Shown one piece after another: positions 9,435 to 12,395 of a stretch of 64,000 nt of DNA. The translations under genes were made by a program, and so were the position numbers. The stretch lies in NCBI GenBank assembly GCA_040901445.1, contig JBBDYQ010000015.1, forward strand, positions 1 through 64,000, in the 5' to 3' direction. This DNA comes from Thermoleophilaceae bacterium (GTDB lineage: Bacteria > Actinomycetota > Thermoleophilia > Solirubrobacterales > Thermoleophilaceae). The notes under the pieces are model-generated. The model saw nothing but the letters and a program-made list of their open reading frames with translations, searched no databases and was not told the origin of the DNA. Position 1 is the first letter of the stretch, and every line of letters begins with the position of its first letter.

Positions 9435-9477
9435 GAAGCCCGGTGCCGGACTCGAACCGCCGACCATTCCTTACCAT
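9435..9477 (-). repeat. truncated tRNA-Thr 3' half (candidate attachment-site relic)
   Basis: These 43 bases match the 3' half of the intact tRNA-Thr(GGT) at 12323-12395 from the anticodon loop (ATGGTAAGGAA) through the T-loop GGTTCGAGTCCG to GGGCTTC, with about five differences and one gap. Similarity stops at the anticodon loop, a common crossover position for tyrosine recombinases. Orientation equals that of the intact gene. A T-stem pair is broken, so it is not functional. It is read as one end of an old integration. Confidence 0.75.
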
Positions 9478-9591
9478 CGGCCCGGGCCCGGTTCGGCAGG
9501 GTCGCGTCGAGGAAGGCCGGGGCTGTGAATTCCCTGCTCAGAGGCGAACTCTGAGCGTTGTGCATGGAACGGAGTGGGTCGGGAGGCGCGT

Positions 9592-9732
9592 GAGCGCTGG
9601 TCGCGCACGCTCCCCCACAGGGTCGACCTGCTGTCACTCAACGACCGCTACGCCGAGCGCCTGCTGCAACTGCAGCTCGCGTGGCTGGACGAAGCCGACG
9701 CCGCGTTGGCCGAGCGCAGGTCCCACGCCTAG
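9592..9732 (+). pseudogene. orphan C-terminal gene remnant
   Basis: An in-frame stretch of 46 codons plus TAG reads ERWSRTLPHRVDLLSLND then RYAERLLQLQLAWLDEADAA, helical and amphipathic, with no credible start upstream. It resembles the C-terminal dimerisation helix of a small regulator, but I cannot name the family. It lies inside the tRNA-bounded segment among other remnants and is probably the tail of a deleted gene. Confidence 0.35.
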
Positions 9733-9751
9733 AGCGACCGCGCCCCCGCGA

Positions 9752-10012
9752 GAGCAGAACGGCCCGGCTCTCCTCGCGGAGCTCCACTACGTCGACGAGG
9801 CGATGCCCGACGCCGCCGCGTTCGCGACGATCGACAAGCCCGCGCTGCTCGTGGCGGCATCCGAGTCCCCGCCTGAGCAGCGGGAGATGACCGAAGCGAT
9901 GGCAGGCGCGCTTCCCAACGCTCGCACCGCGCTGGTGGGCGGAGGCCACCTCATCGATCCGGCCGCGCCTGAGGTACTCGGCTTCATCGAGGAGCTCCTC
10001 GAGAGCCGATAG
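9752..10012 (+). pseudogene. alpha/beta hydrolase C-terminal remnant
   Basis: The frame encodes IDKPALLVAASESPPEQREM, then ALVGGGHLIDPAAPEVLGFI and ending EELLESR. This is the final third of an alpha/beta hydrolase: a strand before the acid loop, then the catalytic-His region GGGH. The nucleophile elbow and oxyanion HG motif are absent and no start codon fits, so it is truncated. The same C-terminal plan is seen in the intact hydrolase that begins 10 bases downstream. Confidence 0.6.
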
Positions 10013-10021
10013 GTTGCGGGG

Positions 10022-10840
10022 GTGGAGGTCGTACGGGCGAATGGCCTCGAGATCGCCTACGAGCGCGTCGGGACGGGGCCACCGCTCGTGTTCGTGCACG
10101 GCGCTGCCGAGGATGGCCGCGTGTGGCGACCGCAGCTCGCCGCCCTGGCCCAGGAGTTCACGGTCGTCGCCTGGGACGAGCCGGGGGCGGGCCGCTCCTC
10201 GGATGTGCCTGCGGATTTCGGCCTCGCGGACTACGCGAACTGCCTCGCGGCGCTGATCGGCGCACTCGCGCTCGGCCCGGCACACGTCGCCGGCCTCTCC
10301 TGGGGCGGCACCGTCGTGCAGGAGCTCTACCGCCACCATCCGGAGCTCGTCGCGACGATGATCCTCGTCGACACCTACGCGGGATGGAAGGGATCGCTGC
10401 CTGAGGAGGACGTGCGCGCCCGGGTCGAAGGCGTACGGCAGATGCTCGCCGCGCCTGCCGACGAGTTCGAGCCCACGCTTCCCGGGCTTTTCGCCGGTGA
10501 TCCGCCGGCTGAGTTCTTGCCGCTCCTGGAAGAGATGGCCGCAGACGTCCGCCCCCAGAGCATGAGGACCGCGGTGCTTGTGATGGCCGAGGCGGACCAG
10601 CGCGATCTGCTGCCACGCATCGCCGTGCCGACCCTGCTGATCTGGGGCGAGCTCGACGCCCGTTCGCCGCCCCGCATCGCACGCCAGTTCGAGGAGGCGA
10701 TCCCAGACACCACGCTCGTCCTGATCCCCGGCGCCGGTCACGTGAGCAACCTCGAGCGGCCCGAGCAGTTCACCCAGGCCGTGTGCGAGTTCTGCCGCGG
10801 CCGCTCACCGCGTCAGTGCTCGTACCCGCAAAGAGAGTGA
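10022..10840 (+). CDS. alpha/beta-fold hydrolase
   Basis: A 272-residue cytosolic hydrolase with a GTG start. Oxyanion HG (LVFVHGAAEDG) is near residue 28, the nucleophile elbow is GLSWGGT (Ser about 99), an acid loop follows IAVPTLLIWGELDARSPP, and the catalytic His is in GAGHVSNLERPEQF. This is the epoxide hydrolase/haloperoxidase/esterase superfamily; the substrate cannot be told. It is part of the small island behind tRNA-Thr. Confidence 0.85.
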   Translation: MEVVRANGLEIAYERVGTGPPLVFVHGAAEDGRVWRPQLAALAQEFTVVAWDEPGAGRSSDVPADFGLADYANCLAALIGALALGPAHVAGLSWGGTVVQELYRHHPELVATMILVDTYAGWKGSLPEEDVRARVEGVRQMLAAPADEFEPTLPGLFAGDPPAEFLPLLEEMAADVRPQSMRTAVLVMAEADQRDLLPRIAVPTLLIWGELDARSPPRIARQFEEAIPDTTLVLIPGAGHVSNLERPEQFTQAVCEFCRGRSPRQCSYPQRE

Positions 10841-10863
10841 CCTATGATCGCGGCCGAGATCTC

Positions 10864-11640
10864 GTGGATGCGCGCCCACAGGTGATCCTGCTTCCCGGGG
10901 CGGTGCTCCCCGCCACCTTGGCGTACGGGGCACTGCTGGACGTCCTCGGTGACGAAGTCGAAGCGGTGGCAAAGGATCTCGAGGTCTACGCGGGCGAGGA
11001 GCCCCCGCCCGACTATGCGCTCGACGTCGAGAGCAAGGGAATCCTGCGAGCCGCCGAGGCCTCCGGGTTCGACCGCTTCCACCTCGTCGGCTACTCCGGT
11101 GGAGGCGCCTCGAGCCTGGCCTTCGCCGCGAAGCACCCGGAGCGGCTGCGAACGCTCGCGCTGCTCGAGCCTGCGTGGGCGGGCAACGAAGGGGGTGACC
11201 CGGCCGAGGAGGCGGTATGGCGAGAGTTCGAGCGGATCGTGGCCCTCCCGCCGGAGGAGATGATGCCGGCGTTCGTGCGCGGCAACCTGGGGCCGGGTGT
11301 CGAGCCACCGCCGCCACCGCCGGGACCTCCGCCGCCGTGGATGGCGAAGCGGCCGGCCGGGATAAGGGCGTTCATACGGGCGTTCAAGGCCGGCGAGCTC
11401 GACCTCGACGCGCTTCGCGGCTTCACGGCTCCCGTCTACTTCGCGCTGGGCGCCCTCAGCAATCCCGACCAGTACGCGAAGATCGCCGAGCGCCTGGCCG
11501 GCGTGTTCCCGGACTTCACGCTCGAGGTGTTCGAGAAGTGCCATCACTTCGAGCCGCCGCATCGGGTGGAGTCCGAGCGGCTCGGTTCGTCACTTCGGGA
11601 CCTGTGGGCCCGGGCTGAGACCGTCTCGGTCGCCGGGTAG
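10864..11640 (+). CDS. alpha/beta-fold hydrolase (second island copy)
   Basis: A second hydrolase, about 258 residues from GTG 10864 (DARPQVILLPGAVLPATLAY). The open frame extends further upstream, so the start is uncertain. The nucleophile elbow is GYSGGGASS and a late His pair is in KCHHFEPPHRVE. An unusual poly-proline stretch (about residues 145-160, GVEPPPPPPGPPPPW) sits in the cap region. It follows the previous hydrolase by 23 bases and is probably cotranscribed. Substrate unknown. Confidence 0.75.
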   Translation: MDARPQVILLPGAVLPATLAYGALLDVLGDEVEAVAKDLEVYAGEEPPPDYALDVESKGILRAAEASGFDRFHLVGYSGGGASSLAFAAKHPERLRTLALLEPAWAGNEGGDPAEEAVWREFERIVALPPEEMMPAFVRGNLGPGVEPPPPPPGPPPPWMAKRPAGIRAFIRAFKAGELDLDALRGFTAPVYFALGALSNPDQYAKIAERLAGVFPDFTLEVFEKCHHFEPPHRVESERLGSSLRDLWARAETVSVAG

Positions 11641-11777
11641 CTCCTACTCCCGCGCCACGAGCGAGTCTCAGGCTCGCGTCCATTGCGACCGCCTCCTGGA
11701 CATCAGCCGCATCCGCGCGAAGCGCAAGCGCGGCGCCGCTGGGGCGCGACGGCCACGCGGGTTGGTTTTCGGGGTGG

Positions 11778-12134
11778 CTACTGACCCTTGAGGTGATCGA
11801 GAACGGGCCGGAACTGCTCTGGCGGGGAGAAGTCCACGTACTCCGAATCCTCGAGCGCCTCGGGCGCATGAGGCGGCGCCCAATAGAAGACGTCGCCCGC
11901 TTGGTAATCCTCCTCGCCGTCCGGCGTGTGCATCCGGATGCGTCCCTTCAGCATGTAGCCCCAGTGGGGGCAGCCGCACATGTCGCCGGGAAGGCCCTGC
12001 AACGCTGGCCTGAAATCAGCGCCCTTGGGTGCGCGCACGAAGGCGACCGTCATGTCACCGGCCGGCGCTGCTCGCAACTCGGCGTCTCCGTCCGCGAACT
12101 CGACAACCGCGTCTTCGCGCGAGATCACTGGCAT
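11778..12134 (-). CDS. cupin-domain protein
   Basis: A 118-residue single-cupin protein. Metal-site motifs are recognisable: GCPHWGYMLKGRIRM (motif 1 region, with the His) and YQAGDVFYWAPPHAPEALED (motif 2). The ATG follows AAAGG. Such small cupins bind a metal and act as isomerases, dioxygenase-like enzymes or sensors; the role here is not determinable. It runs opposite to the two hydrolases and lies just inside the tRNA-Thr end of the island. The stretch 12135-12322 shows no gene. Confidence 0.75.
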   Translation of the reverse strand: MPVISREDAVVEFADGDAELRAAPAGDMTVAFVRAPKGADFRPALQGLPGDMCGCPHWGYMLKGRIRMHTPDGEEDYQAGDVFYWAPPHAPEALEDSEYVDFSPPEQFRPVLDHLKGQ

Positions 12135-12322
12135 CGGGCCACCTTTCCTCGGAATCCTCTGGCCGCTCGACCCTCTCAGACTGAAGCCCGAGCTTCAAGG
12201 CCGTGAGACAAGTCTCCTCGGCCCGCAGCCGGCCGAGCCTCGGACGAGCACCAGTCTCTCGGGGCACGGATCTGGGCTCGGGCTGGCGAGCGACGTCGCC
12301 GGTCGCGGTCCGGCGGGCCGGA

Positions 12323-12395
12323 AGCCCAGTGTCGGACTCGAACCGACGACCCCTTCCTTACCATGGAAGTGCTCTACCAACTGAGCTAACTGGGC
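12323..12395 (-). tRNA. tRNA-Thr (anticodon GGT)
   Basis: A complete cloverleaf: acceptor GCCCAGT/ACTGGGC, D-arm GCTC...GAGC, anticodon stem CTTCC/GGAAG with loop ATGGTAA (anticodon GGT), T-arm GTCGG-TTCGAGT-CCGAC and discriminator T. CCA is not encoded. Its 3' half is duplicated in degraded form at 9435-9477. Confidence 0.97.

Follow-up and report, generated by a model that had tools for sequence, protein, structure and literature searches.

A probable integration scar in tRNA-Thr(GGT), with a small gene remnant beside rpmG-secE-nusG, in a Thermoleophilaceae bacterium

The window, by which we mean the whole stretch of 64,000 nucleotides analysed here (positions 1 to 64,000 of contig C15 of the Thermoleophilaceae genome G000), contains an intact tRNA-Thr(GGT) gene and a second, partial copy of it. 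The partial copy is 41 bases long, lies on the same strand as the gene, and is separated from the gene's 3' end, on its 3' side, by 2,845 bp of DNA that encodes several apparent accessory genes. How did half of a tRNA gene come to lie at this place, and do the genes between the two copies belong to the same event? In what follows we argue that the half copy is very probably a scar left where a tyrosine-integrase element entered tRNA-Thr(GGT); the integrase and most of the element's body would since have disappeared. The features on which the argument turns are these:

8752..8913, (-): rpmG, the start of the conserved rpmG-secE-nusG flank (tblastn; conserved in the nusG loci of relatives)
9437..9477, (-): degraded copy of tRNA-Thr(GGT) positions 32-73, the putative distal attachment-site scar (alignment; pattern match at C15:9448-9477)
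9478..12322, no strand: candidate remnant island, bounded by the two tRNA-Thr copies; GC 0.702
9580..9732, (+): short open tail, called a 'regulator-like tail' in a preliminary description; without a Pfam or NCBIfam match
9746..10012, (+): alpha/beta hydrolase C-terminal remnant (59% to the C-terminus of a hydrolase in locus L182; PF00561)
10022..10840, (+): alpha/beta hydrolase A, hydA (PF00561, 3e-29)
10783..11640, (+): alpha/beta hydrolase B, hydB, start uncertain, overlapping A from the given start (PF00561, 1.2e-9)
11778..12134, (-): cupin-like protein (PF07883, E 0.0018, 18.3 bits)
12323..12395, (-): intact tRNA-Thr(GGT), the putative reconstituted target gene (ARAGORN; Rfam RF00005, 68.2 bits)
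12422..12504, (-): tRNA-Tyr(GTA), the conserved neighbour on the 5' side (ARAGORN; loci of relatives)

The gene at 8752-8913 is named rpmG after its family.

When the fragment is aligned with tRNA-Thr(GGT), 37 of 42 columns are identical over positions 32-73, and the similarity begins at position 32, which is the first base of the anticodon loop. Upstream of this point the alignment contains no matching run, and the agreement with positions 1-31 (8/31) is at the level of chance. Neither ARAGORN nor Rfam calls a tRNA at 9437-9477. The preliminary description had already reported a degraded copy of the 3' half, about 2.85 kb away and in the same orientation, whose similarity starts at the anticodon loop; our measurements agree, except that its length of 43 bases was too long by two. 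The window thus has the layout of a tRNA-targeted element, that is, a direct repeat of the 3' part of the tRNA at the two ends and the intact gene at one of them.

The same half recurs across the order. At least two matches to a pattern of the tRNA-Thr(GGT) 3' half occur in 10 of 61 genomes, and at least two copies of the half in 32 of 232 genomes of the order, with none in either backward-read control; the larger count was made by eye, and the extra copies are confirmed as partial only in the genomes of the fragment alignment and of the same-contig set described below. The fragment alignment comprises 14 fragments from 9 genomes, G008, G023 and G026 being omitted because the stretches compared contain no complete intact gene. 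These fragments match positions 32-73 at 35/43 to 42/42 and positions 1-31 at 3 to 10 of 31, with 0 to 5 matching bases directly upstream of position 32, so that the 5' limit of the fragments appears to be nearly the same across the order. In the five genomes with gene and fragment on one contig (the window's own genome G000, and G031, G042, G054 and G060), all eight fragments lie on the same strand as the intact gene and 3' of it.

Integrases accompany several of these copies. A PF00589 domain is found about 150 to 1,050 bp from the tRNA-Thr gene or the fragment in 5 of 11 genomes (G014, G039, G042, G054 and G060), and none is found near either in G031, G030, G002, G008, G023 or G026, some of which are represented there by short contigs. 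We also considered 12 of the 13 further genomes with same-contig, same-strand pairs of copies (G132, with copies 755 bp apart, was left out). An integrase domain lies between the copies in 7 of these 12 (G101, G103, G119, G194, G204, G218 and G219); the absence of PF00589 between the copies in the other 5 counts against the integration reading. From sequence comparison, then, the same attachment core appears to be used by integrase-bearing elements in relatives. Between genomes, the integrases beside tRNA-Thr(GGT) are only about 25-54% identical, a divergence suggesting that the one target was taken up repeatedly and independently. Decay is not confined to the window: one integrase near a fragment in G054 contains an internal TGA.

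Several individual loci deserve mention in their own right. Between tRNA-Thr and the fragment, G060 carries a 12-kb element (G060:C3:130735-142908, locus L165) with a tyrosine integrase, a head maturation protease-like gene and a resolvase-domain recombinase, and this element is perhaps a phage remnant or satellite. Beyond the fragments at G042:C10:27320-27361 and G039:C11:144876-144917, 2.5 kb are 98.7% identical between two species, a match which suggests the same recently moved element. Elsewhere in the window's own genome, an integrase domain with an internal TGA (G000:C17:1835-2353, locus L125) lies near tRNA-Ile(GAT) at 3300-3374; it is 74% identical to the G054 integrase beside the tRNA-Thr fragment, and a related integrase may thus sit at two different tRNAs. 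Finally, at G114:C111:23551-24131 two copies of the 3' half stand 0.55 kb apart on opposite strands, and were not counted as a pair.

Viral sequences carry the half as well. The 42-base pattern matches four IMG/VR contigs, on whose examined stretches ARAGORN finds no tRNA gene, and the bases before the core are unlike the tRNA 5' half in all four. On two of the four (L269 and L271) an integrase-like sequence lies 0.65-1.1 kb away, facing the site. Judged by these features, the viral halves are probably phage attP sites with the same core. Among known phages, ten records contain the 42-base half at 83-94%.

The window itself holds no such integrase. Its mobility-gene search covered tyrosine integrases: PF00589 has no match anywhere in C15:1-64000 (Pfam), and a tblastn search of 8914-12322 with 24 integrase queries reaches a best E of only 0.15, revealing no remnant. 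Both searches bear out the earlier statement that no integrase is left, the second being the translated search proposed with it. The missing integrase counts against the integration reading, and since none was found we file the region as a remnant and not as an element.

If the fragment is a displaced half of the host gene, then the sequence beyond it should correspond to the sequence beyond the intact gene in relatives without a fragment. The relatives compared at this site all belong to genera other than the window's. Across 40 nusG-upstream stretches tRNA-Thr(GGT) is present in 11, at 135 to 5,922 bp from rpmG, oriented as in the window in 9 of the 11 loci and oppositely in 2 (L070 and L075). 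These two, from genus g4 (L070/G017 and L075/G003), have the gene 135-171 bp from rpmG, on the strand opposite to that in other relatives. The interval between rpmG and tRNA-Thr varies, in gene content also, in genomes without the fragment, and its length alone therefore proves nothing. In G007 the intact tRNA-Thr lies 788 bp from rpmG and the fragment is absent. What lies beyond the intact gene in G007, on the rpmG-secE-nusG side, aligns with what lies beyond the fragment in the window (73% over 1,352 columns, starting 524 bp out in the window and 789 bp out in G007), and the beyond-fragment sequences of G008 and G026 likewise align with this side of the window. On sequence comparison, G007 has the order that a displaced host half in the window would predict.

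The comparison of this interval in relatives had been proposed in the preliminary description, which anticipated empty sites joining tRNA-Thr directly to the flank. The gene order of G007 fits such a site. Over the nearest 0.5 kb, however, the 523 bp that separate rpmG from the fragment in the window show no significant alignment with the 788 bp of G007, so that the empty site is matched in gene order only. In comparison with 14 relatives, significant similarity of the near flank is largely confined to the ~100 bases that follow rpmG and does not reach the fragment. Moreover, in G004 a distant alpha/beta hydrolase (29.7%) occupies the rpmG to tRNA-Thr interval where there is no fragment, which counts against the integration reading. 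Between rpmG and the fragment the window also contains an ORF of 103 aa (9052-9363; GC3 0.95) without a Pfam match; we considered it as a conserved neighbour and rejected it, since nothing in the 40 nusG loci matches it better than E 2.7.

We now turn to the genes between the two copies. The preliminary list of accessory genes holds in part. Two hydrolases are confirmed by Pfam and a truncated one is supported by comparison with L182, while the supposed regulator tail (9580-9732) matches neither Pfam nor NCBIfam, and the cupin is weak, its PF07883 score of 18.3 bits falling below the curated cut-off of 27.2. The truncated gene covers only profile positions 194-240 of PF00561 (E 0.04); the full-length counterpart in L182 has 262 aa, of which the N-terminal part is absent from the window. 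In L182, which is one MAG contig, homologs of the truncated hydrolase and of hydrolase A lie 5.2 kb apart at an unrelated place. Homologs of hydrolase A, at up to 81% identity, are scattered among actinobacteria, with Solirubrobacteraceae MAGs among the matches, and none of its relatives in the 80 loci examined lies near rpmG, nusG or tRNA-Thr; the gene may itself have been transferred. Hydrolase B has one close homolog (62%, in G038), away from the tRNA-Thr/rpmG site, and cupin homologs (57-63%) occur in 4 of 60 relatives (G041, G034, G011 and G057), none at the window's site. Close relatives of the hydrolase and cupin genes, which if present at this site without a tRNA duplication would have spoken against an island, were thus not found there in the genomes compared.

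The composition of these genes is somewhat unusual. GC3 is 0.87 in hydrolase A and 0.84 in hydrolase B, compared with a mean of 0.943 (sd 0.03) over 42 other window genes, of which only one has GC3 <= 0.87; the ORF picker that supplied this gene set makes use of GC3 in its own selection. The overall GC of the interval, 0.702 against 0.725 for the window, is not unusual and counts against the integration reading. We treat the GC3 values and the patchy distribution of homologs, which may reflect foreign cargo, as supportive only.

Might the half copy have arisen in some other way? A chance resemblance to a tRNA-like sequence could be suspected in so short a match carrying mutations. The local alignment score, however, is 30.5, whereas 500 dinucleotide shuffles of the 3.4-kb interval, scored on both strands, reach at most 19.5, and the backward-read pattern returns 0 of 61 and 0 of 232 genomes; on these controls we reject chance similarity, whose probability we consider negligible. 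It is also conceivable, but very improbable, that a second tRNA-Thr gene once stood here in tandem and that the fragment is its surviving 3' half. Tandem tRNA duplicates are often nearby and in the same orientation, as the fragment is. Yet random decay should end at varying positions, and 14 fragments from 9 genomes share their 5' limit, for which reason we reject the tandem duplicate; in addition, integrases stand beside several fragments, and the same half is present on viral contigs. Nor do the fragments form a second tRNA gene lineage, a possibility held open at the outset, since they are without the 5' half of the tRNA.

A different kind of alternative accepts the attachment-site scar and questions only the genes, proposing that the original element was deleted and that the hydrolase and cupin-like genes were gained later, or independently, at a variable interval. 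The variation of gene content between relatives, fragment-free ones included, speaks for it, as does the occurrence of two of the homologs together at an unrelated place in L182. On the other hand, all the genes lie between the two tRNA-Thr copies, and both hydrolases are low in GC3, like the genes picked in the integrase-bearing element of G060. We regard a later gain as possible, although somewhat doubtful.

Our preferred reading is the integration and decay of a tyrosine-integrase element. Under this reading the element, which may have been a prophage, a phage satellite or an integrative island, would have brought a copy of the 42-base 3' half of tRNA-Thr(GGT) with it and recombined with the host gene, with the crossover at the anticodon loop. 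The element's own copy would have completed a functional tRNA-Thr, leaving the displaced host half at the far end, adjoining rpmG-secE-nusG. The integrase and most of the body would then have been lost and the displaced half would have decayed, so that a 2.8-kb remnant remained. We infer the integration and its crossover point by analogy with the relatives, as we infer this order of losses and that the present hydrolase and cupin-like genes were once cargo. The island reading of the preliminary description is supported by the geometry of the copies, by the core and integrases in relatives and on viral contigs, and by the comparison with G007.

More tentatively, tRNA-Thr(GGT) may be a long-lived hotspot across the order, one that phages and several diverged integrase lineages came to use independently; the window could then represent an end state, a domesticated remnant whose hydrolase and cupin-like genes the host kept after mobility was lost. 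Once relatives are compared, a scar of 41 bases is enough to recognise an old island. As a recurrent integration target in the order, tRNA-Thr(GGT) could further serve, in a group that has been little studied, to locate prophages and islands or as a site at which to place genes.

Williams, in 2002, reportedly distinguished sublocations of integration within tRNA genes, among them a crossover at the anticodon loop after which the tRNA is restored by the element's own 3' half. The crossover and restoration proposed here are the same, but the window has no integrase to assign to a subfamily. The genomic island PYG1 of Pyrococcus yayanosii lies in tRNA-Gln and spans about 21 kb, with near-identical repeats that differ by 1 bp; the paper describes a 44-bp case of a partial tRNA copy and regards remnants of this sort as a pervasive feature (PMC9897764). 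The window's interval, by contrast, is 2.8 kb, its copies agree at 37/42, and it is without an integrase. Among actinobacteriophage attB sites in tRNA genes, that of Arthrobacter phage Hestia is in tRNA-Thr-CGT, with a core of 52 bp; according to the paper, it is common for the attachment sites of mycobacteriophages to overlap the anticodon loop (PMC10865867). Hestia, like the window, involves a threonine tRNA; it differs in that the tRNA is CGT and not GGT, and in that these are active phages of other hosts (PMC10865867). Among papers listed for integrases and tRNA genes in Solirubrobacterales there is one genome paper, on an unrelated subject. That integrated elements leave partial tRNA copies is well documented, and the window adds a decayed example to this known class.
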